A program made the translations under genes and the position numbers. The notes under the pieces were generated by a model, which was not told the DNA's origin, did not search any database, and was given only the letters and a program-made list of their open reading frames with translations. Shown one piece after another: positions 2,299 through 12,148 of a DNA stretch of 21,766 nt (the stretch's first letter is position 1; every line of letters starts with the position of its first letter). The stretch is from the IMG/VR virus record IMGVR_UViG_3300030580_000042, positions 1 through 21,766 of that record. One strand, written 5' to 3'. The DNA comes from a virus.

Positions 2299-2649
2299 TT
2301 ATTTCCAGATGGGTTTATGAAATGCGGTTTTGGGCCATGTCGACCAGCCCCCACCGTCTAGGGAGAAATAGTGAATCATTCCGTCATGGCGATTCGTCAT
2401 TTGCCAGCAACCACCACCAACCGTGTTACCGTGCGCGTCAGCAATCCGGTACGCATGCATGTCGTCTTGCCGCGCATTGTCACCAACGCACCAATTGGAC
2501 AGCAACAGAATGCGATCGCCAAACGCGTTATACGCCACCGCGACATATTCGGCCGGGTCTTGCAGCGTTGGGTACGCCTCGGCACGTGCGGCGAACAGCC
2601 ACAACGACACGATGCCCAGGAATGCCAGTAACTCAATGAGCCGTTTCAT
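2299..2649 (-). CDS. Secreted hypothetical protein with signal peptide (116 aa)
   Basis: First gene downstream of the 2684-2712 promoter, with ATG at 2649 and AGGA about eight bases before it. Residues 1-25 form a classic Sec signal: KR at the N-terminus, a hydrophobic core (LIELLAFLGIVSLWLFA) and an ARAEA cleavage site before YPTLQ. The mature part, about 90 residues, has two cysteines (SNWC and GGGC) that could form a periplasmic disulfide and ends in a Trp- and Gly-rich stretch. A periplasmic phage protein expressed early might act on superinfection, injection or envelope state, but nothing in the sequence identifies the target. Confidence 0.75.
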   Translation of the reverse strand: MKRLIELLAFLGIVSLWLFAARAEAYPTLQDPAEYVAVAYNAFGDRILLLSNWCVGDNARQDDMHAYRIADAHGNTVGGGCWQMTNRHDGMIHYFSLDGGGWSTWPKTAFHKPIWK

Positions 2650-2683: not shown

Positions 2684-2712
2684 AGCATAAACCGTTAATA
2701 ACGGATTTGCAA
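2684..2712 (-). promoter_or_regulatory. Sigma70-like promoter P1, leftward
   Basis: On the minus strand TTGCAA (2712-2707) is followed by exactly 17 bases and TATGCT (2689-2684). Transcription would start near 2677 and read the secreted-protein gene at 2649 and the genes beyond. The spacer contains a perfect palindrome (2692-2704). The same box architecture recurs at 5799-5827 and 11854-11882. Confidence 0.75.
2692..2704. promoter_or_regulatory. Perfect 13-base palindrome in the P1 spacer, candidate operator
   Basis: CCGTTAATAACGG is a perfect inverted repeat (CCGTTA, one central base, TAACGG) lying between the -35 and -10 boxes of P1. A protein bound there would exclude RNA polymerase. A 12-base version sits at the same offset in the promoter at 5799-5827. 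The regulator gene immediately upstream (2773-3075) is the natural candidate to bind it. Confidence 0.65.
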
Positions 2713-2722
2713 GTGTGCGGAC

Positions 2723-2753
2723 AAAAAAAAAGCCACACCGTGAAGTGTGGCTT
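2723..2753 (-). terminator. Rho-independent terminator for the helicase-regulator unit
   Basis: On the minus strand a nine-base perfect stem, AAGCCACAC (2753-2745) with GTGTGGCTT (2738-2730), closes a six-base loop and is followed by a run of nine T (2731-2723). It lies 20 bases beyond the stop of the TetR-like gene. It separates the helicase unit from promoter P1, so the left operon is insulated from upstream read-through. Confidence 0.9.
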
Positions 2754-2772
2754 GCATGGGTCGGGCGGCACA

Positions 2773-3075
2773 TTACATAAGCGCCGACACTTCACGCTTC
2801 AATTCCCGACCCATACCAAAGTCGTCAAGCTCGTAATGCACTGCGCACGCGGCGAGGGTTTTAGCGTCTTTCTGCTCGATTGCAAACGCCATTACTTCCG
2901 ACCGCAACCCTTCGCGCCCGTCAAAGTAGTGATTGAGCAGGCCATGCGACACCTTGCACTCACGCGCCACACTAGCCCGCGTCACCTTACGGATACCCTT
3001 GGTTCGAGCGATCTTGTAGCCCGCTTCCAATAGTTGTTTCTTGCGGTCGTCCGCGATCATTCGAATTCGAGTCAT
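2773..3075 (-). CDS. Mini TetR-like transcriptional regulator (100 aa)
   Basis: A basic N-terminus and helix (DDRKKQLLEAGYKIARTKGI) precede VTRASVARECKVSHGLLNHY and FDGREGL, which match the TetR-family helix-turn-helix pattern (the VS.G...HYF..K..L signature familiar from BetI/TetR N-termini). TetR proteins usually exceed 180 residues; this one ends about 40 residues after the DNA-binding domain, so the ligand-binding and dimerisation domain is missing or replaced by one short helix. It is the last gene before the terminator at 2723-2753. A near-match to the CCGTTATTAACGG palindrome lies 5-17 bases upstream of the start codon (3080-3092), which suggests autoregulation. The ATG at 3075 has no clear ribosome binding site; an ATG at 3060 is an alternative. 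I infer that it is the repressor of the early promoters; an activator role cannot be excluded. Confidence 0.8.
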   Translation of the reverse strand: MTRIRMIADDRKKQLLEAGYKIARTKGIRKVTRASVARECKVSHGLLNHYFDGREGLRSEVMAFAIEQKDAKTLAACAVHYELDDFGMGRELKREVSALM

Positions 3076-3079
3076 AGTA

Positions 3080-3092
3080 TCGTTAGTAATGG
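3080..3092. promoter_or_regulatory. Operator-like palindrome upstream of the regulator gene
   Basis: On the minus strand CCATTACTAACGA matches the P1 palindrome CCGTTATTAACGG at 10 of 13 positions, with one mismatch in each half-site and one at the centre. It occupies most of the 33-base gap between the VRR-NUC gene and the regulator start. A weak -35 candidate, TTGTAA (3114-3109), lies upstream on the same strand, which would put the site over the -10 region. Confidence 0.45.
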
Positions 3093-3108
3093 TTTAGTTA
3101 TGGGGATA

Positions 3109-3597
3109 TTACAACGTTCCGGGACCAGTGGCAAACCTTGCATCTCCACCGTCTGCAATACACAGTTCGAGAAACGCCGATTGCGCCCGCTCGTGTGCGC
3201 TACCGCTAAACGTCCAATCTTCGGGTTTCATTTCGCGTAGCACGACCTGAGCAATGACACTCCCGACCATATTTGCCGTAATGTGCCGCTTGCGCCAGCC
3301 TACCAAGTCCGACGATTTGAGCACCTTATTAAGCGCAGCGCTGTCATTCGCCAACCCATACCGCACCATTTGCCCGCTATCGTCACGGTAGGCGCCGACG
3401 TTGTTACGATACAGACGCACACCCTTATCGGCCGCTTCCAGGCGTACCAAACTCTGTTGCCGGGCTTCGCTACCACGTGGCGCATCAAGAGATATTTCGT
3501 GAGGGTGAATGCCGCTTAACCCCATACGTCGCTCAAGCGCAACGACCGCATCGAGTGATACGCCGTATTCCGCGGCCCAGGTTCGGATAATGCTCAT
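3109..3597 (-). CDS. VRR-NUC domain nuclease (162 aa)
   Basis: A compact PD-(D/E)XK-fold nuclease of the VRR-NUC family. Visible motifs are E44 near the domain start, LYRNNVGAY (R64, N65, N66, G68), SSDLVGW with D97 as the likely metal ligand, and REMK with E122 and K124 forming the ExK half of the active site. The family-typical ending AQSAFLELCIADGGDARFA follows. Such proteins are common in phage replication modules beside SNF2/DEAD-type helicases and are thought to process branched or flapped DNA. The first 40 residues look like an extra helical region (WAAEYGVSLDAVVALERRMG). ATG 3597 overlaps the upstream stop in ATGA. Confidence 0.85.
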   Translation of the reverse strand: MSIIRTWAAEYGVSLDAVVALERRMGLSGIHPHEISLDAPRGSEARQQSLVRLEAADKGVRLYRNNVGAYRDDSGQMVRYGLANDSAALNKVLKSSDLVGWRKRHITANMVGSVIAQVVLREMKPEDWTFSGSAHERAQSAFLELCIADGGDARFATGPGTL

Positions 3598-3767
3598 TCA
3601 ACCGCCTTAAGCGTCATATGTGCGTATGTCCGCCCTATGGCGGGGTGGAAATATAAGTCGACGCAAACATAGTCACGGCCAAACAGTTGTATTGCTGTGG
3701 ACTTAATCGCGGCATCGCGTATTGCTTCATACTGCGCAGGACTTTCAATTAAAATTTCTAGTTTCAT
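3594..3767 (-). CDS. Small hypothetical protein (57 aa)
   Basis: I chose ATG 3767, which gives the ATGA overlap with the upstream stop; a longer frame extends upstream to 3857 but would lie inside the preceding gene and is low-complexity there. The product begins MKLEILIESPAQYEAIRDAA and ends YFHPAIGRTYAHMTLKAVE, an alternating strand-helix-strand pattern like a small alpha/beta domain. It is coupled on both sides (ATGA into the VRR-NUC gene), which suggests a stoichiometric partner in the helicase-nuclease module. Function unknown. Confidence 0.7.
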   Translation of the reverse strand: MKLEILIESPAQYEAIRDAAIKSTAIQLFGRDYVCVDLYFHPAIGRTYAHMTLKAVE

Positions 3768-4039
3768 TTCCGTGCCATCCGTTGTGTGAGGGTGTTTCCC
3801 TGACTGCGTTTTGCTGCGCGACGATGTGCGCGGGTCATTCGATGCATCGTCGGCCACGTCACTTGGGGCATTTCTTCCGGTAGCTCCAACGTCTTCAATT
3901 GTGCATCGAGCGCCTTAAGTTGCGCGGTTGCGTCGTTGAACCGTTCGACCGGCAAACCTTCGGCTTTTAGCGCATGTTGTAGCACTCTGCGCAATGATTG
4001 CAAGTGCCGAATTACGTCTTGTGGGGTTGGTGCTGTCAT
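3764..4039 (-). CDS. Small helical basic protein (91 aa)
   Basis: A 91-residue protein predicted to be mostly helical: heptad-like leucines run through VIRHLQSLRRVLQHALKAEG and LKALDAQLKTLEL, so a short coiled coil is likely. The C-terminus is strongly basic (MTRAHRRAAKRSQGNTLTQR), suggesting nucleic-acid binding. ATG 4039 overlaps the helicase stop in ATGA. It could be a helicase accessory or loader, judged only from position and charge. Confidence 0.7.
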   Translation of the reverse strand: MTAPTPQDVIRHLQSLRRVLQHALKAEGLPVERFNDATAQLKALDAQLKTLELPEEMPQVTWPTMHRMTRAHRRAAKRSQGNTLTQRMARK

Positions 4040-5790
4040 GCCGCTTGCTCCGCAGTGTTAATAATGGTTTCAGGTGGAACGATACCACGCAATTCAAGAT
4101 CGGCGCAAATTTTAGCGCGTAACGCGTCGGCGTCTTTGGCGTTTAGCGTCTTCGCCTGCATTACGTCAATCTTGAACGTGAACCAAAATCGACGCATGGC
4201 TACATTGGCGTTTTCGTGGCGCGACAGACACCAGACGGTAATCGCTTCACGCAATCGGAACTGTGCGGCCTGTCGTCGCATATGGTTAGCTACTACCGGC
4301 AATCGCGGCACGCCGTACGGCACAATTGGCGCGTCATCAATGCGCGCAATTTCGCCGCGATACTGTGCGAGCAAAAGCGGATCGATTTCGGTTATGTCGC
4401 CGTCAACGGTCAATGCCCCGCTTCGGTCAGATGGTGCGGGCGCCGCGGTTCCACAATGGGGGCACGCTGCATAAATACGCTCGTACGGTTGCGCACACGT
4501 GACATTAAGGCACACACGCATCGGTATTGCGTCGTCAGAGCCACGATTGCGCTTGCGACCATCGAGCGACCATACCCGCGGTTTATCAGGCGGTCCCTCA
4601 TGTCGATAGAAGTTAGCCGCATGGTCAAAGATATACGCGAACGGCTTCTCGCTCGATGCGATCAACTCTAACCGTCGTTGGGGCGGGTACATATCCCACG
4701 TCCCGGCGAGTATTGCCGATATCATCAAACGCAGCGCACGCCCCCATTGTTGACTGTAGAGCGCAAAAGACGCTGTAGGCCGAGCGAACGATACGCACTC
4801 GATTGCAGGTAAGTCGAAACCCTCGCCAAAAAGATCAACATTGACCAGTTGCAGCAATTCTCGATTCTTAAATTTTCGTAGTGCGATGCGGCGCTCATCG
4901 GGGGTGCTATCCGATGTAATCAGTACAGCCGGCACGCCTGCGGCGTTGAACGCATCGGTAATTTCTTGAGCGTGTGCAATGTCGACCGCGAACGTTACGC
5001 CCAGTTTGCCGCGTGCGTATTTGCAATAGGTTGCGACAACATCGCCAACGATCTTATTGGATTTATGAACCGCTTCACGTAGTTGTGCCGGGTTGAACTC
5101 ACCGTTTGCGCCGACTGCCACGCCATTTAAATCTAGGTCGGACGGGGGAATTGCATAGACTTTGTAATCCGTCAAATAGCCGTTATCGATCAACCAACGC
5201 ATCGGCGGCCCTTCAACCAACGCATCGGCTATGCCCCCTTCGTCGCGTCCCAAACCGTGCCCGTCCGCACGTATCGGCGTAGCTGTCGGCAATAACACGC
5301 GGGATTGTTGGGGAAATATCGATACGGCTTTGCCCCATTTGTTGTTCTCTAGCACATGGTGCGCTTCGTCAACAAATAGCAATCCAACCGTACTTGCCCA
5401 CCGACCCAAATCTTTACGTTTGTTGATGGTGTCGACGCTTGCCACACGCCACGGTGTGCGGGCGTTGTAATATGTGCGTCCAAGCTCATCAATATGCGCT
5501 TCAACAATGCTTCGTATGGTCCCAGGTTGCGCGATGATATCGTGCGGTACATCTTCACGAGCAAGCTGCATCGATAACTGTCCGACCAGTTCGGAACGGT
5601 GCGCCATTGCGCAACCACCGGGCAACGCCGGGTTCCAGGGTGTTGCGGCATGATCCTTTGCGAAGCTACCCATTACAACGGTTTTGCCGCCCCCGGTCGC
5701 CAGTTGAACCATTACGGCGCGGGCGCCAGCCGCGAACTCGTTGAGCGCATCTTGTTTTAGTTTGAACTGAAAGCCGCGCAAATTACTCAT
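4036..5790 (-). CDS. Superfamily 2 DEAH-box DNA helicase with C-terminal zinc finger (584 aa)
   Basis: A complete SF2 helicase. Domain 1 carries a Q-like region at the start (RGFQFKLKQDAL), Walker A ATGGGKT (31-37), DEAH (141-144) and the TATP motif III (169-172). Domain 2 carries VTFAVDIAHAQ (motif IV region), NVDLFGEGFDLP (motif V, about 318-328) and QQWGRALR (motif VI, 347-354). A zinc-finger-like region follows, with C427, C432, C443 and C446. This architecture is typical of phage replication or recombination helicases that unwind forks or branched DNA. It is the first gene of the leftward unit and starts at ATG 5790, only nine bases from the opposing promoter at 5799, so the two units diverge from a 79-base gap. 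The last ~100 residues show no further motif I recognise. Confidence 0.92.
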   Translation of the reverse strand: MSNLRGFQFKLKQDALNEFAAGARAVMVQLATGGGKTVVMGSFAKDHAATPWNPALPGGCAMAHRSELVGQLSMQLAREDVPHDIIAQPGTIRSIVEAHIDELGRTYYNARTPWRVASVDTINKRKDLGRWASTVGLLFVDEAHHVLENNKWGKAVSIFPQQSRVLLPTATPIRADGHGLGRDEGGIADALVEGPPMRWLIDNGYLTDYKVYAIPPSDLDLNGVAVGANGEFNPAQLREAVHKSNKIVGDVVATYCKYARGKLGVTFAVDIAHAQEITDAFNAAGVPAVLITSDSTPDERRIALRKFKNRELLQLVNVDLFGEGFDLPAIECVSFARPTASFALYSQQWGRALRLMISAILAGTWDMYPPQRRLELIASSEKPFAYIFDHAANFYRHEGPPDKPRVWSLDGRKRNRGSDDAIPMRVCLNVTCAQPYERIYAACPHCGTAAPAPSDRSGALTVDGDITEIDPLLLAQYRGEIARIDDAPIVPYGVPRLPVVANHMRRQAAQFRLREAITVWCLSRHENANVAMRRFWFTFKIDVMQAKTLNAKDADALRAKICADLELRGIVPPETIINTAEQAA

Positions 5791-5798
5791 GTTGCCCC

Positions 5799-5827
5799 TT
5801 GCAAAACCGTTATTAACGTTATATCCT
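5799..5827 (+). promoter_or_regulatory. Sigma70-like promoter P2, rightward, for the replication unit
   Basis: TTGCAA (5799-5804), a 17-base spacer and TATCCT (5822-5827). Transcription would start near 5834, and AGGA about ten bases before the ATG at 5870 serves as the ribosome binding site. Spacer sequence and geometry match the promoter at 2684-2712. The 79-base gap it lies in (5791-5869) also has to hold the leftward promoter of the helicase, but I could not find a convincing one: TTGCAC on the minus strand has only a TATAAC at 14 bases. Confidence 0.7.
5807..5818. promoter_or_regulatory. Candidate operator in the P2 spacer
   Basis: CCGTTATTAACG matches 12 consecutive bases of the minus-strand reading of the perfect 13-base palindrome at 2692-2704, at the same offset from the -35 box. 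A further half-site (CCGTT, 5833-5837) follows downstream. Because the helicase and replication units diverge here, one bound repressor could control both. Confidence 0.6.
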
Positions 5828-5869
5828 CAAATCCGTTGTGCAATCATAACCCATCAATAGGACTAAAAC

Positions 5870-7201
5870 ATGCAACCGCAACTAGTTTTCGCATTTGACC
5901 CGAATGAGGCAAGCGAGGTCATTCTGTATCAAGTGGCGCAGTGGCTTGAAATGCAAACGGCTGAAATTATGCACGTCGTTGAGTGTTTGCAGACCAGTAC
6001 GCCGCCCGTGCCGTCGCATATCAAGCGTGCCGTCGAAAGTATCGGCGCGAATAACCCGGCCGTAGGCGTCGAGTTGAATCCGGCCATCGCATTCGGCGCT
6101 CTAATGAACGGTGCCGCGGGAAACCAACCTGCAACCGTAAATGCCCAGTCTGGTGCGGTTGCCGAAGCGTTGCAGACTGCCCCGACGGGGAACGCGGCTA
6201 CTTCTCAAACTACGCCGCCCGCATCGTCAATACCTGTACCCCCTATCGCGAACGCGGCGCTTGCCCCCGCGGGCAATGTGGCCCCTTCGAACCATGCCGG
6301 CGTCGTACTTGATAAAGACGGTATCCCGCACGATGTACGTATCCACAGCAAAGAGCCGACGATGACGGATAAGGGCTATTGGCGCAAAAAGCGCGGCGTG
6401 ACGGATAGCACCATTCGGGACGTTGAGGCTCAATTACGCCAACTTGCCGCACTCACGCCGCCAGCGACGCAACATCATGCATCGAGCGATGCGGACGCGT
6501 TGACCAAAAAAACCAACGCACTCGCCTACGCCGATGCAGAAGCACGCAAAGTATGCGGCCCGACGCCGTTAGACGAAGCGACGCTAAAAGCGTTGAATAG
6601 CAACATTCCGACGACCGTTTCCGAAGAGCAAGCCGCATGGTTCAACGCTTATTCCGCGAAGCGTAACGCTGCATATAAGGCGTTTATGGCCGGCGAGGTG
6701 CAACTCACGCCCCCGGCGCCGTTGCCGCCTGCGCACGATACAACCGGCTTGCCGCACGATGCGCGTATTCACGTCACACCGTGGTCGGTCAATTCCGAAG
6801 GTGTGTTCGATCAGCGCATGGACGTATCACCCGAAACGAAGTTAGCGGTTATGGCGGAACTGAGGGGAAACGGTGCGGCACTGGTTGCTACTTCCCAAGT
6901 TGGCGCGGCTTCGTCTTCACCTGTTGTTCTATCGGTACCCGTTGCACCGGCCGTGACGCCAGCCGCCCCAGGTTTGCCGACTGTTAGCGCTACGGATGCG
7001 GGTACGTCGTTCCCGCTGTTGATGCGTTGGATTGTGCAAAACCAGAAAGCCGGGCGCATTACTGCAACGGCGCCGTCCGAGGTTGCGGGTTCGTTCGGCT
7101 TTGCTGATGCTGCCGGTGTTGGACAAATTGCACTCGCCGCATCGCGTGGGGATTTCTTCCCGCATTTTGTCGAAACCCTTCAAGCGTACGGCGCGGTCTA
7201 A
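5870..7201 (+). CDS. Phage replication-region protein with two GxPHDxRIH motifs (443 aa)
   Basis: First gene of the rightward unit. An N-terminal acidic region (residues 1-75) is followed by Ala/Pro/Thr-rich linkers and two copies of a motif: DKDGIPHDVRIH near 145-160, followed by a GYWRKKRGV basic patch, and TTGLPHDARIH near 295-305. The C-terminus (from about 385) is a small helical domain ending in FVETLQAYGAV. The G(L/I)PWDxRIHS...W+KKRGV element recurs, from memory, in many proteobacterial phage replication and recombination proteins; here Trp is His in both copies, and only the first copy keeps the basic extension. Its neighbours (nuclease, SSB, polymerase) suggest a role on DNA during replication or recombination. 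The exact function is unknown. Confidence 0.8.
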   Translation: MQPQLVFAFDPNEASEVILYQVAQWLEMQTAEIMHVVECLQTSTPPVPSHIKRAVESIGANNPAVGVELNPAIAFGALMNGAAGNQPATVNAQSGAVAEALQTAPTGNAATSQTTPPASSIPVPPIANAALAPAGNVAPSNHAGVVLDKDGIPHDVRIHSKEPTMTDKGYWRKKRGVTDSTIRDVEAQLRQLAALTPPATQHHASSDADALTKKTNALAYADAEARKVCGPTPLDEATLKALNSNIPTTVSEEQAAWFNAYSAKRNAAYKAFMAGEVQLTPPAPLPPAHDTTGLPHDARIHVTPWSVNSEGVFDQRMDVSPETKLAVMAELRGNGAALVATSQVGAASSSPVVLSVPVAPAVTPAAPGLPTVSATDAGTSFPLLMRWIVQNQKAGRITATAPSEVAGSFGFADAAGVGQIALAASRGDFFPHFVETLQAYGAV

Positions 7202-7202
7202 C

Positions 7203-8351
7203 ATGGCCGACGAAAGCCCGTTTGAGTTGCGGCTTTCACAGGCCGCGTATTGGGCGAAGTGCGCCGCGTTTGTGCGAATGAACCGGCGCCCCGAAACCGG
7301 TATTATTGAAGATGAGCAGGATAATACGATACGCGACGAAGGTACGGCGATGCATTGGGTTGCGCAACGACTGATGGACGTATTTGAGGTATTGCCAGAA
7401 GTTGGAGATGTTGCGCCGAATGGTGTCATATTGACCGACGACATTATCGATAGCGCAGCATTTTATTGCGAAGTGCTCAATTCGTATGCACTGATACCGT
7501 GGCGCATAGAGGAACAACTTGCTGCCCGGCGCATCCACCCAAAATGTGGTGGAACGCCTGACGCATTCGGGCATGATTTGTTCAAACCGAAAATTATTTT
7601 GCCCGATCTAAAAGGAGGTTATCGACCAGTTGAAGTTTTCCCCAATCCGCAATTGATTGGATATTTAGCCGCGATTCTCGATGAAAACCCGGCTTGGGAA
7701 ACGCCCAATGCCGTCGTTGAATTTGTCATCGTTCAGCCGCGTGCGTACCATCGTGACGGACCGGTACGCACGCATACAACGCGGCTTATGGATGTGTACC
7801 CATACATTGCGGAATTAGCGCGTGCTGCGGCTGTTGCGATGGGCGATGGCGCGATGTGTACGGCTGGCTCTCAGTGTGACGACTGCGGCGCACGTGCGGT
7901 TTGTGTCACGTGTCATGCGGCTGGCATGCGTGCGCTAGAGGTTGCGGGTGAGGCGGCGTTAAACGAAATAACCGTTGCGGCTGTCGATTACGAGTTGCTA
8001 CGTATCGAAGAAGCACAGCGAATGTTAGAAGCGCGGCTAACCGGCTTACGTGCGCATGCTGCGCATATGATTCGGCGTGGTGAGACGTTGCCCCATTTTG
8101 CGATCCAATCCGGCAAAGGTCGGCTCGATTGGATTGACGACGACGCGGAACAAAGCGCTATCGCAATGGGGGATTTGATGGGTAAGAATTTGCGCAAGCG
8201 CGAAGCGGCAATAACGCCCACGCAAGCAGCAAACGTAATACCGCGGGAATTGATCGACGCATATGCGGCGAGAAAGCGCGGCGAGGCAAAGCTAGTTCGC
8301 TTTGATGCTAACAGCATCGCTAAAGCGTTTTCTAAATTGACTTTGGAGTAA
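7203..8351 (+). CDS. DUF2800-type PD-(D/E)XK nuclease with cysteine cluster (382 aa)
   Basis: Starts at ATG 7203, one base after the upstream stop; a longer upstream frame overlaps the preceding gene and is ignored. Cas4/RecB-like features are visible in order: RDEGTAMH (44-51, with H51), E103-E104, GTPD with D120, DLKGG with D135 and K137 as the D...DxK active-site pair, and then Q150 and Y154 (QLIGY). Five cysteines at 219, 225, 228, 234 and 237 (CTAGSQCDDCGARAVCVTC) probably hold an iron-sulfur cluster, as in Cas4/AddB-type nucleases. The family normally sits beside the DUF2815 protein and the phage polymerase, as here, and presumably supplies exonuclease activity for replication or recombination. 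Confidence 0.85.
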   Translation: MADESPFELRLSQAAYWAKCAAFVRMNRRPETGIIEDEQDNTIRDEGTAMHWVAQRLMDVFEVLPEVGDVAPNGVILTDDIIDSAAFYCEVLNSYALIPWRIEEQLAARRIHPKCGGTPDAFGHDLFKPKIILPDLKGGYRPVEVFPNPQLIGYLAAILDENPAWETPNAVVEFVIVQPRAYHRDGPVRTHTTRLMDVYPYIAELARAAAVAMGDGAMCTAGSQCDDCGARAVCVTCHAAGMRALEVAGEAALNEITVAAVDYELLRIEEAQRMLEARLTGLRAHAAHMIRRGETLPHFAIQSGKGRLDWIDDDAEQSAIAMGDLMGKNLRKREAAITPTQAANVIPRELIDAYAARKRGEAKLVRFDANSIAKAFSKLTLE

Positions 8352-8357
8352 CACAAG

Positions 8358-9395
8358 ATGGAATTCACAACCCCAGTAGGGCGAATGGTCTACGGCAGTG
8401 TGTTCAACGGGTCCGATAAGGACTATAAGACGGGTCAGCCGCGCCTTATAAAAAGTGGCCCGAATGCTGGTAAGCCTGCAATGCAATGGTCTTTCGGTGT
8501 GGCATACCCGAAGATGCTCGCTAACGGCATGCCCAACGAAGAATTTAATGTATTCTTCCGTACCGTTATCGATATCGCTCGCACCGGATACCCGCAATTC
8601 TTCAATGGGCCTATCGATCCGTTCACAGGCAAACCGGGTTGCACAAACCCAAGTCTTACGTTCAAGATCAAAGACGGCGACGGATTCGATAAAAACGGCA
8701 AACCGAACAATGCGAAAGAAGGTTACGCCGGGCATTGGGTCGTTTCGTTTTCCTCGATGTATGCGCCGCGTTGTTTCGATATCGGCAAGTTCGCGCCTGA
8801 GCAGCAAATTCACGATCAAACGCGAATCAAGCCGGGGTACTTCGTCGCCGTATCGGGCGAGGTCAAACCCAACACCGGATCGGAAACGCCGGGCGTCTAT
8901 ATGAATGGCAACTTGGTTTGTCTTGTCGGTAGCGGCCCGGAAATTGTAAAAGGCGCCGATGCGGGCACGGCATTTGCTGGCGTTGCCGCTGGTACACTCC
9001 CTGCCGGTTGTGTCGTTGGTGCCACGCCTGCCAATGCGCCGGCCGTACCGCTCGCACCCGGTGCCGTTCCGCAAGTACCCGCAGCACCACACGATGCGTT
9101 AGCGGTCGCTGTCGCTAACGGCTGGATTCCGCACCCGACCTCACCGGGCTATTACTACAAAGGTCAGGATGTTAAAGCCGCTGGCGACGTTGCGGCGCTC
9201 TATCCGGCCCCCGCGCCCGCAGCAGTGCCCGTGCCGCCCGCGCCGGTCATTCCACCACCCCCGCCAGTTGTGCCGCCTGCTCCCGCGGTTGGTCCGACGC
9301 TTACCGAAGCCGGGCAAGCGTTAGGTACATACGACTCGTTCAAGGCGAACGGATGGGATGATGCGATGATGCGTCAACATGGCTACTTGGTTTAA
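8358..9395 (+). CDS. DUF2815-like single-stranded DNA-binding protein with proline-rich tail (345 aa)
   Basis: Residues 1-190 resemble the DUF2815/phage SSB fold: KDYKTGQPRLIKSGPNAGKP near the start, then FKIKDGDGFDKNGKPNN, GHWVVSFSSMYAP and a strand-rich end (FVAVSGEVKPNTGSETPGVY). A long Ala/Pro/Val linker follows, broken by WIPHPTSPGYYYKG, and a short terminal element (YDSFKANGWDDAMMRQHGYL). That element, a GW....M...G.L pattern, is a recurrent C-terminal peptide in phage SSB-like proteins and could recruit partners as SSB tails do. GGAG lies eight bases before ATG 8358 at the end of the upstream gene. The protein presumably coats single strands for the polymerase and the DUF2800 nuclease. 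Confidence 0.8.
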   Translation: MEFTTPVGRMVYGSVFNGSDKDYKTGQPRLIKSGPNAGKPAMQWSFGVAYPKMLANGMPNEEFNVFFRTVIDIARTGYPQFFNGPIDPFTGKPGCTNPSLTFKIKDGDGFDKNGKPNNAKEGYAGHWVVSFSSMYAPRCFDIGKFAPEQQIHDQTRIKPGYFVAVSGEVKPNTGSETPGVYMNGNLVCLVGSGPEIVKGADAGTAFAGVAAGTLPAGCVVGATPANAPAVPLAPGAVPQVPAAPHDALAVAVANGWIPHPTSPGYYYKGQDVKAAGDVAALYPAPAPAAVPVPPAPVIPPPPPVVPPAPAVGPTLTEAGQALGTYDSFKANGWDDAMMRQHGYLV

Positions 9396-9416
9396 GATAG
9401 CCTGATCGTCAATACG

Positions 9417-9443
9417 CGCCCGCTTGTTGCGGGCGTTTCTTTT
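9417..9443 (+). terminator. Internal rho-independent terminator before the polymerase gene
   Basis: A seven-base GC stem, CGCCCGC (9417-9423) with GCGGGCG (9429-9435), closes a TTGTT loop and is followed by TTTCTTTT. It lies 22 bases after the SSB stop and nine bases before the polymerase ATG at 9452, with no promoter visible in between. It therefore probably acts as a partial attenuator, giving more SSB than polymerase. Confidence 0.75.
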
Positions 9444-9451
9444 GGATCACT

Positions 9452-11347
9452 ATGTCACGCCCTATTGCGTACTGCGACCTCGAAACCTACCGCAACTATT
9501 TTCTGTGTAAGTTCCTGTTCGAAAATGATGGCTCGTTTCTTGACTTTGTGCTCATACCCGGCACGCGGCTAAACGCACTCGGCATTCTGTCAGTGTTGGC
9601 ACGCCACACTATAGTGACATTCAACGGCAACAATTACGACTGTCCGATTTTGGCGCTCGCTCTATCCGGTGCGACGAATCAGCAGTTGAAAGACGCTAAC
9701 GATATGATCATTACCAAGGGTCTAAAGCCTTGGGATTTCTACCGGGCGTATAACGTCAATATGCCGGCCTTCACCGATCACATCGACATTATGGAAATTC
9801 TTCCAGGCGTGCGCATTTCGCTCAAGACTTACGGGGGCATTGCGCATTGTCCGACCATCCAAGATTTGCCGATTGATCCGAGCGAGGATATTGCGCCGCT
9901 GCAACGTATGCAGCTATCGAAGTACTGCGGCAACGACCTGTTGACGACGCAAGCGCTTTACAAGATCGCAATCGAAAAGGAGTGGTTGCCGCTGCGCGAA
10001 CACATTAGCGCGGAAATTGGTATCGACGTTCGCAGCAAATCAGATGCACAGATTGCAGAAGCAATCACACGAGCAAAGTTAGGATTCCGGCCAACACCCC
10101 GCGTTGTCGAGCATGGGTTTCAGTTTCTCTATAAAGTGCCCACGTGTATCCAATTCCAAACGCCTCAGTTACAAGATGTGTTGCGCATTGTGTCATCGTC
10201 GTCGTTCACAGTATTGCGTAAAGAAGAATCAACCGGCGAGATTGACGAAGTGACGGGCAAGCCGAAAAAGTCCGGCATTCGCATGCATGGCGACGTTGCA
10301 AAGGTTCGCGTATCGATAGGTTCGAGCGTCTATAAATTTGGTGCGGGTGGATTGCACTCGCAGGAACACGGTGTTTATTATGAAACAACAGATACGCACG
10401 AAATTTGCGATGATGACGTGGGTGGGTTCTATCCCAAAATTCTTATCAGCTTGGGTCTGTACCCGCAAGCGTGCGGGCCGCAGGAACTCGCTATTTATAC
10501 CGCGACGTACCTTGAACGAATGGCGGCAAAAGCGGCCAAACGTAAGAAAGAAGCAGGGTCCAAAAAGATTGTTTTGAACGGTAAATTTGGCAAGCTCGGT
10601 TCACCGTACTCATTCTTTTACGAGCCTGAATTATTGATTCAAACAACGATAACAGGTCAGCTAATGCTATTGATGTTGATAGAGCGCTTGGAACTCGCTG
10701 GCATAAGCGTTGTGTCGGCCAATACCGACGGCATAGTGACACGCACGCCCAGGATACTCACAGCGCGCCGCATAGCCATTATGAACGAGTGGGAAGCGCA
10801 AACCCAAATGGAACTTGAGACGACCCACTATCGCGGTATCTACATGCGCGATGTGAATAATTATTTCGCTATTACGCTTGATGGTGAGGTGAAGCGTAAG
10901 GGTCTGTTCACGCCGCCCGAAGTTGGTAGCGGCCCAAGCGGTAGTAAGGCGCCGCACCGCGAAATTTGTAGCGATGCGGTTATTGCATTCGTTAAAGACA
11001 ATACGCCGGTTGACCAAACGATTTACAGGTGCCGCGACGTGCGCAAGTTTGTCACTGTTCGGGCGCCTAAAGGCGGTTGCGTGCGGCGCATACACGAAGG
11101 TACGGAGCGCGAACAGTTCGACCAAGACGCGCCCGGCCAAACGGAATACATGGGCAAAGTGGTTCGATGGGTATATCGTCGGGATTACGATGGCGCGCTG
11201 TATATGAAGGGTAGCGGTAATCAAGTTGCGGATAGTAAAGGGGGCTGGCCCGTTATGACATTGCCGGACCGTATGCCCGACTGGGTAGATTATGAATACT
11301 ACGTACGGCACGCTAACGAACTGCTGCGCGAAATGAGGCTGATATGA
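9452..11347 (+). CDS. Family-B-like phage DNA polymerase with 3'-5' exonuclease (631 aa)
   Basis: Replicative polymerase with proofreading. The exonuclease domain has Exo I D9-L-E11, Exo II N58-G-N-N-Y62-D63 and Exo III Y158-C-G-N-D162. The palm has motif A D322-V-G-G-F-Y-P, motif B K372-I-V-L-N376-G-K-F-G and motif C S-A-N424-T-D426-G. The order and spacing are those of family B, but the first Asp of the DTD motif is Asn, and the protein is short compared with the roughly 800-900 residues of T4/RB69-type enzymes. The catalytic second Asp (D426) and motif A Asp (D322) remain, so activity is expected. No terminal-protein insertion is obvious. The ATG at 9452 has only a weak GGA ribosome binding site and follows a terminator hairpin, suggesting low expression. 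Confidence 0.88.
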   Translation: MSRPIAYCDLETYRNYFLCKFLFENDGSFLDFVLIPGTRLNALGILSVLARHTIVTFNGNNYDCPILALALSGATNQQLKDANDMIITKGLKPWDFYRAYNVNMPAFTDHIDIMEILPGVRISLKTYGGIAHCPTIQDLPIDPSEDIAPLQRMQLSKYCGNDLLTTQALYKIAIEKEWLPLREHISAEIGIDVRSKSDAQIAEAITRAKLGFRPTPRVVEHGFQFLYKVPTCIQFQTPQLQDVLRIVSSSSFTVLRKEESTGEIDEVTGKPKKSGIRMHGDVAKVRVSIGSSVYKFGAGGLHSQEHGVYYETTDTHEICDDDVGGFYPKILISLGLYPQACGPQELAIYTATYLERMAAKAAKRKKEAGSKKIVLNGKFGKLGSPYSFFYEPELLIQTTITGQLMLLMLIERLELAGISVVSANTDGIVTRTPRILTARRIAIMNEWEAQTQMELETTHYRGIYMRDVNNYFAITLDGEVKRKGLFTPPEVGSGPSGSKAPHREICSDAVIAFVKDNTPVDQTIYRCRDVRKFVTVRAPKGGCVRRIHEGTEREQFDQDAPGQTEYMGKVVRWVYRRDYDGALYMKGSGNQVADSKGGWPVMTLPDRMPDWVDYEYYVRHANELLREMRLI

Positions 11348-11508
11348 CGTACTATCATTTGATCGCGTATGCACCAGACGGTTCTAGCGAATGGTGGCTA
11401 GTGCGCGCTGTCGCCGGGACCGAAGTTGAAGCCGTTGGGTCGATATTTAGCCAGATTCGCGATACAGGCCCAATGCCCATGATTTGCAACAAGAGCTATT
11501 TACACTGA
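11344..11508 (+). CDS. Small hypothetical protein (54 aa)
   Basis: Read directly: ATG 11344 overlaps the polymerase stop in ATGA and the frame runs 54 codons to TGA at 11506-11508. The product begins MTYYHLIAYAPDGSSEWWLV and ends ICNKSYLH, with a probable strand-strand-helix fold. The next gene starts one base beyond its stop. The packed junctions on both sides support translation. Function unknown; a polymerase-linked accessory is possible by position only. Confidence 0.65.
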   Translation: MTYYHLIAYAPDGSSEWWLVRAVAGTEVEAVGSIFSQIRDTGPMPMICNKSYLH

Positions 11509-11509
11509 T

Positions 11510-11725
11510 ATGCAAAACATTGTTGAAATTGTCAAAACCGACAACCTTCTGTCCATCGTGTTGCGCGACGTAACGACGATGACATACAGCACGCATGCTT
11601 ACAAACGCATTCCGAATGGGGAATTTACGCGGACCCCAGGCGCGTTGTACAAAGGTTCGAACTTGGATCGAGCAGTTGAAGCCGCAAACCAGTACGTTAA
11701 ACAGTCGTTCATACTTAGGAGTTGA
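11510..11725 (+). CDS. Small hypothetical protein (71 aa)
   Basis: A 71-residue protein starting one base after the previous stop. It begins MQNIVEIVKTDNLLSIVLRD and ends with an amphipathic helix (NLDRAVEAANQYVKQSFIL). Mixed alpha/beta composition, no cysteines, no signal or membrane segment. There is no Shine-Dalgarno of its own, so it is probably translated by coupling within the polymerase operon. Not recognised. Confidence 0.65.
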   Translation: MQNIVEIVKTDNLLSIVLRDVTTMTYSTHAYKRIPNGEFTRTPGALYKGSNLDRAVEAANQYVKQSFILRS

Positions 11726-11727
11726 CC

Positions 11728-11871
11728 ATGTTGATAGCTCTTTGCTGTGCCTCAGTCGTGCCGCTGTCCATCGCGGCCCACTTGTGCGGTTGCTTCGCTT
11801 GGAGTTATCACAAAATACCAACACACGACCGACAACCGAAAAGCGTAAATAGTTTGCAAAACCGTCAATAG
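11728..11871 (+). CDS. Very small membrane or secreted protein (47 aa)
   Basis: Read directly: ATG 11728 lies six bases after an AGGAG ribosome binding site, and the frame is open for 47 codons to TAG at 11869-11871. The N-terminal half is hydrophobic with four cysteines (LIALCCASVVPLSIAAHLCG, then CFAW), and the C-terminal half is polar and basic (KIPTHDRQPKSVNSLQNRQ). This suggests a single membrane span with a cytoplasmic or periplasmic tail. Its last codons contain the -35 box and part of the spacer of the next promoter (11854-11882). Function unknown. Confidence 0.55.
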   Translation: MLIALCCASVVPLSIAAHLCGCFAWSYHKIPTHDRQPKSVNSLQNRQ

Positions 11872-11882
11872 TGTTCTATAGT
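11854..11882 (+). promoter_or_regulatory. Sigma70-like promoter P3 with degenerate operator
   Basis: TTGCAA (11854-11859), a 17-base spacer and TATAGT (11877-11882). The spacer begins AACCGT as in the 5799 promoter and holds CCGTCAATAGTG (11862-11873), a degenerate form of the palindrome with mismatches in both halves. It gives the 78-residue gene at 11912 a separate start, with a 5' leader of about 23 bases. A weaker operator would make this promoter less tightly repressed. Confidence 0.7.
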
Positions 11883-11911: not shown

Positions 11912-12148
11912 ATGATCACCGTAACCGACGCAGCGAAATACAGCACAAACGGCGAAGTGGCTTACCAAATTACCTACTCTGACAATACAAAGGTGCGTGC
12001 GGTTGAATCAACGGACGGTACGATCCGCAAAGAATACCTAGACGGTAGTACGTGGACTTTGGTTGGAAAGCCTTATACCGTAAAGCGCGATAAAAAGCGC
12101 ATTGCTGAAAAGATAAAAGATATCTGCGTGGAACTACTTAGTAAGTAA
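11912..12148 (+). CDS. Small basic hypothetical protein with its own promoter (78 aa)
   Basis: ATG 11912 is preceded by CGGAGC at good spacing and by the strong promoter at 11854-11882; the bidirectional terminator follows directly, so the gene forms its own transcription unit. The N-terminal half looks beta-rich (VAYQITYSDNTKVRAVESTD, then TWTLVGKPYTVKRD) and the C-terminal half is a basic helix (KKRIAEKIKDICVELLSK). A strongly expressed, single-gene early transcript is the usual setting for phage regulators or host-takeover proteins. No family is recognised. Confidence 0.75.
   Translation: MITVTDAAKYSTNGEVAYQITYSDNTKVRAVESTDGTIRKEYLDGSTWTLVGKPYTVKRDKKRIAEKIKDICVELLSK

Follow-up and report, generated by a model that had tools for sequence, protein, structure and literature searches.

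A palindromic operator set in the core promoters of uncultured phages and its proposed phage-encoded TetR-type repressor

At the level of sequence, a set of 17-bp dyads is fitted into the core promoters of several operons of a virus contig and its relatives, and across lineages these dyads are linked to a phage tetR gene. We consider it likely that the palindromes are operators of the encoded protein, an HTH-only TetR-type repressor that we call mini-TetR, which would give a self-limiting shut-off of many promoters. The contig (21,766 bases, analysed over its whole length and called the window here) is probably a fragment; its polymerase, helicase and other genes place it among phages known mainly from uncultured contigs, the nearest cultured polymerase being that of Pseudomonas phage Psp6 (43% identity).

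The operator set in the window and its relatives

Three promoters in the window, which a first-pass annotation had read as TTGCAA-17-TATGCT, TTGCAA-17-TATCCT and TTGCAA-17-TATAGT, were correct base for base on re-reading, and all three have a 17-bp spacer with CCGT at the identical offset. The palindrome noted in the spacer is also present, but its 13-base form is better written as 17 bases, AACCGTTANTAACGGTT, an exact fill of the spacer. The features discussed below are as follows.

2299-2649, minus strand: unknown 116-aa protein with a signal-peptide-like start; first gene behind P2712, with relatives in G001 and G012
2684-2712, minus strand: promoter P2712; -35 TTGCAA 2712-2707, operator 2706-2690 (ATCCGTTATTAACGGTT; site 1), -10 TATGCT 2689-2684
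2730-2753, minus strand: terminator-like hairpin after tetR, 10 pairs and a T run
2773-3075, minus strand: mini-TetR, 100-aa HTH-only TetR-type protein (TetR_N E=3.9e-8), proposed operator binder
3078-3094, minus strand: fourth operator, AACCATTACTAACGATA, 3 bases before the tetR start codon
3106-3134, minus strand: possible tetR promoter TTGCCA-17-TAATAT, weak, just upstream of the fourth operator
3109-3597, minus strand: nuclease gene (phrog_93), just upstream of tetR and conserved in all relatives
4036-5790, minus strand: helicase of DEAD/ResIII type, with which the leftward unit begins
4053-4069, no strand assigned: fifth, weak site, located within the helicase gene at its 3′ end and 14 nt ahead of the 4039-3764 ORF
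5799-5827, plus strand: promoter P5799; -35 TTGCAA 5799-5804, operator 5805-5821 (AACCGTTATTAACGTTA; site 2), -10 TATCCT 5822-5827
5870-11347, plus strand: rightward unit behind P5799, encoding an unknown 443-aa protein, a DUF2800 exonuclease, an ssDNA-binding protein and DNA polymerase
11854-11882, plus strand: promoter P11854; -35 TTGCAA 11854-11859, degenerate operator 11860-11876 (AACCGTCAATAGTGTTC; site 3), -10 TATAGT 11877-11882
11912-12148, plus strand: unknown 78-aa protein (phrog_18800), first gene behind P11854

Two of the three reported sites are strong copies of AACCGTTANTAACGGTT, from which site 1 (2690-2706) differs by one base and site 2 (5805-5821) by two. Site 3 (11860-11876) retains the left half (AACCGT) and has mostly lost the right; its first 12 bases, TTGCAAAACCGT, are the same as in site 2. 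Within the window alone the palindromes are only mildly in excess (18 with at most three mismatches vs 7.8 expected), and we scored sites with a symmetric matrix built from 46 training sites, all from relatives, with the window left out. The matrix ranks 2690 first (25.9 bits) and 5805 second (23.0), followed by 3078 (17.0) and 4053 (10.1), where about 0.2 sites of at least 13 bits would be expected in the window by chance. The third site had been called degenerate, and so it is, since it reaches only 1.3 bits as a palindrome; similarity to the consensus is graded across sites 1, 2 and 3, so that the grading of site quality is real at the sequence level, and the degenerate site may be unregulated. 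The site at 3078 is missing from the first-pass annotation, whose figure of three early units is too low in view of this fourth window site at tetR and the roughly 10 sites found in relatives whose contigs are long. That the units behind the operator promoters are early is suggested by their gene content.

A DNA pattern of promoter plus palindrome matched 25 stretches in IMG/VR. Two contigs from the first pattern scan (L007 and L009) were dropped, since each had a single exact copy and nothing to indicate the site family. With at most one mismatch, CCGTTANTAACGG occurs in 1 to 7 copies in 20 of 21 contigs examined, and the reversed CCGTTANTAACGG pattern, used as a control, is absent from all of those 20. 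Each of eight long relatives holds 6 to 14 matrix sites of at least 13 bits vs 0 to 0.6 in Markov-model sequences, counts that are partly circular for the relatives supplying training sites and free of circularity for the window and G014; in a more distant relative, G027, the matrix search found no site of at least 13 bits. Taking at least 18 bits as a strong site, we counted 51 over seven near-full-length relatives (about 4-10 each), excluding G014 as a near-copy of G017. Strong sites lie outside conserved ORFs in 38 of the 51 cases vs 18.4% of the sequence being free of such ORFs (p = 4e-18, with approximate gene calls made in this analysis). The promoter hexamers, which played no part in site selection, match in at least 8 of 12 positions at offset 0 for 29 of the 51 sites and at offset +1 for another 8, and at the remaining offsets for 0 to 2 sites, except +11 (6); the operator promoters have spacers of 17-18 bp. 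Sites away from promoters stand about 10 nt before start codons (tetR, a 91-aa ORF, a head gene) or within genes.

These comparisons give good support to the existence of an operator set. The annotation had proposed such a set over several phage units and had named loss of the palindrome in related phages as evidence against it; that check was run, and the palindrome is kept, mostly intergenic and embedded in promoters, which upholds the idea. It is highly improbable that no regulator is involved and that the shared spacer merely reflects a type of strong promoter or a promoter copied several times, as might be argued from the third window promoter, which agrees with the others only in its -35 box and in the left half. 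The conservation is two-fold symmetric, the same dyad is also found outside promoters, close to start codons, and can be combined with other -35 boxes and shifted slightly in phase, and RNA polymerase does not need a spacer dyad. A role of the spacer-class sites as RNA hairpins was rejected because they precede the expected transcription start.

Gene units and positions of the operators

The operator of P5799 lies 15 nt before the start of the divergent helicase gene, and the promoter reads rightward into the replication genes, whereas P2712 reads leftward into the 2649-2299 ORF. The leftward unit runs from the helicase through small ORFs, the nuclease and tetR to the hairpin at 2753-2730, just before P2712. 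Hairpin and promoter are about 20 bases apart (2730-2712), and the tetR and P2712 units are thus closely packed yet separate.

All three promoter positions carry operators in relatives. Between the helicase and the rightward replication genes, as at P5799, an operator is found in eight relatives, shifted in G018 and G020 so that it overlaps a TTGACT -35 box. The position of P2712, just after tetR, has an operator promoter in G005 and G020 as well. Just after the polymerase gene, where P11854 stands, G001, G014 and G002 have a full or near-full operator, which makes site 3 look like a member of the set that has eroded. At the weak fifth site, several relatives have stronger sites 11 nt upstream of the ORF corresponding to 4039-3764.

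Two further operator contexts were observed in other contigs. In several relatives a strong operator copy, AACCGTTAATAACGGAG, precedes a head/virion structural gene by about 10 nt (L033:606-622, L067:5502-5518, L070:1273-1289), and its right arm includes a GGAG stretch resembling a ribosome site, an arrangement suggestive of a late gene controlled by a roadblock or in a translation-linked way. An operator promoter (L031:15660) also precedes a possible outer-membrane beta-barrel gene (L031:14940-15692, minus strand; Pfam match below the cut-off), with similar operators before possible beta-barrel genes in G003 (9182) and G012 (44613); the predicted protein is a candidate for altering the surface of the infected cell.

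mini-TetR as the candidate binder

The tetR gene lies between operators, and its product matches TetR_N (PF00440) with 33.4 bits vs a cut-off of 24; in profile comparisons it matches solved TetR-family chains with a best E of 6.9e-7. The structure model, which is fairly confident (pLDDT 85.8), shows a TetR-type HTH and, beyond it, no more than two short helices. The Foldseek matches listed are TetR-family chains with a probability of about 1; none of them reaches E 0.001, which is not surprising for a fold of this size. At 100 aa the protein has no C-terminal ligand-binding/dimerisation domain of the kind that brings the total to about 200 aa. TetR searches of viral contigs (with a single protein) and of bacterial genomes (with an alignment) confirmed no relative.

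Operators also stand close to tetR itself, at 3078-3094 in the window and 11-14 nt before the gene in G003, G012, G017 and G005; G001, G018 and G020 have no good matrix site before tetR. The number of promoter-type matches in the tetR region, the weak TTGCCA-17-TAATAT candidate among them, does not exceed that in shuffled sequences. G027 appeared by tblastn to lack tetR, and it would have made a clean case of co-occurrence with its missing sites, but a divergent tetR came to light in a profile search, in G027 as well as in Silvanus, and we therefore replaced the co-occurrence argument with a comparison of operators and recognition helices.

For this comparison, cultured phages with a homologous mini-TetR were searched for recurrent palindromes, blind to promoters and to tetR. 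Six of them have a recurrent palindrome of their own, different from that of the window and mostly in promoters: TTGACGnnnnCGTCAA in JD001, AAM22 and C1 (11, 13 and 13 sites), TGACAAnnTTGTCA in Scuro, TAGCGCnnnnGCGCTA in PY6 and ATCATAAnTTATGAT in Psp6. Almost all sites in JD001, AAM22, C1 and Scuro, and all five perfect sites in PY6, have a fixed phase in a sigma70-like promoter, although in the former four phages only the -10 box (17-18 bp) is independent evidence because the palindrome includes the -35 box; in Psp6 only 3 of 8 sites pass the fixed-phase promoter test. Like the window, JD001 (Klebsiella, Jedunavirus), AAM22 (Pantoea), Scuro (Acinetobacter), PY6 (Pseudoalteromonas) and Psp6 combine promoter dyads with a mini-TetR near helicase and nuclease genes, but palindrome and recognition helix differ. 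The recognition helices vary along with the operators among lineages, being V[ST][DH]GL[LI]N[RH]YF in the window's clade, of a VAxGxxNHH type in JD001, AAM22 and C1, and different again elsewhere. A palindrome copy lies 49-61 bp upstream of tetR in JD001, C1 and Scuro, and in AAM22 at the annotated tetR start, which is upstream of the protein's conserved start. We rejected the Poisson P-values of de novo palindromes as proof: they are uncalibrated, shuffles of GC-rich genomes giving similar values (9.8 for G005, 12.9 for G001 and 19.0 for G012), and we therefore rely on the matrix scores, on the control with the reversed pattern and on the register of the promoter hexamers.

In eight further cultured phages with a mini-TetR this simple search brought up no clear recurrent palindrome, although some of them have strong promoters with dyad-like spacers. 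Shewanella phage SFCi1 (L097:24457 and 38292, minus strand), for example, has TTGACG-17-TATAGT promoters whose spacers, CCCTCAGAACAGAGGGC and CCCTCCTACGCAGGGGC, are dyad-like in another sequence. The TetR proteins of Scuro (L090:21424-21924) and of Shewanella phage SppYZU01 (L092:38065-38565) have a second, partial HTH-like repeat at the N-terminus before the main one.

The case for mini-TetR as the binder, built on sequence comparison, is indirect but strong. The operators could be real and yet serve a different protein, either a regulator of the host or a DNA-binding protein of the phage that went unrecognised, and the clade does conserve several proteins without known function; we regard this as unlikely, given that tetR is common to the lineages while the palindrome varies, that four lineages have their own palindrome upstream of tetR, and that no second recognisable transcription regulator is held in common. 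Indeed, only four families (TetR, nuclease, helicase and DUF2800 exonuclease) are common to the window's clade and all six cultured phages, and TetR is the only recognisable transcription regulator among them.

Proposed shut-off mechanism and its comparison with known systems

With mini-TetR as the repressor, host RNA polymerase would read all of these sigma70-like promoters on entry. As mini-TetR accumulates, a dimer would settle on each 17-bp dyad, filling the DNA between -35 and -10 and keeping the polymerase off; with tetR itself among the blocked promoters the process would be self-limiting, and several phage operons would be shut off together as infection proceeds. Here binding of the dyads by mini-TetR, repression, self-limitation and the early timing of the shut-off are all what we infer.

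It is quite improbable that the bound protein instead activates the promoters, by MerR-like twisting of the spacer or in the manner of LuxR/SmcR. MerR promoters do have their dyad in the same place, between -35 and -10, and LuxR, SmcR and HapR are among the nearest solved sequences, with titles of LuxR-DNA structures naming both ‘repression’ and ‘activation’. MerR promoters, however, have long spacers of 19-20 bp, whereas those found here are 17-18 bp and already optimal; moreover, the boxes match sigma70 well and should suffice by themselves, and the dyads of other lineages extend over the -35 box itself.

The proposed repressor system resembles TetR/tetO, QacR and RamR in its TetR_N helix-turn-helix, its short dyad operators in core promoters and its apparent autoregulation. 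It differs in the size of the protein, about 100 aa vs about 190-220 aa in the solved relatives, and in the proposed use of one protein for about 10 promoters of a phage; with no ligand-binding domain of normal size, mini-TetR probably works without a small-molecule inducer. The P22 repressors Arc and Mnt offer another parallel, as small phage repressors with an operator between -10 and -35 and a shut-down of transcription during infection, but they have the ribbon-helix-helix fold and act at a single promoter region, where we propose a TetR HTH and many promoters. Lambda Cro and CI likewise use 17-bp dyads overlapping core promoters, although they belong to another HTH family and their operators form a clustered switch, in contrast to the single sites spread over the genome here. 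No integrase or CI-like match was found among the window and G001 proteins scanned, which cover part of the genes, the window being a fragment.

For the group as a whole, we give about even chances to a broader proposal, in which phages on many Gram-negative hosts have one master repressor for shut-off, an HTH-only mini-TetR encoded beside helicase and nuclease genes. About five to thirteen units would carry a lineage-specific palindrome in their core promoters, at a phase that differs between lineages, protein and operator would co-diverge into specificity types, and operators near the start codons of other genes, the head gene included, would form a second, roadblock-type layer. The tetR gene is annotated in JD001, AAM22, Scuro and PY6 and unannotated in Psp6, and the literature searched, mostly without subscription papers, did not describe an operator or function for these phage genes, nor did it mention the operator of the window and its relatives. 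The proposal gives a large and little-studied group of phages a transcription programme open to testing; the group includes the Jedunavirus phages of Klebsiella, in which tetR is annotated and its target is not given. If true, it would also provide a natural set of small, apparently ligand-free repressor/promoter pairs with different specificities, and would predict which phages can repress one another.
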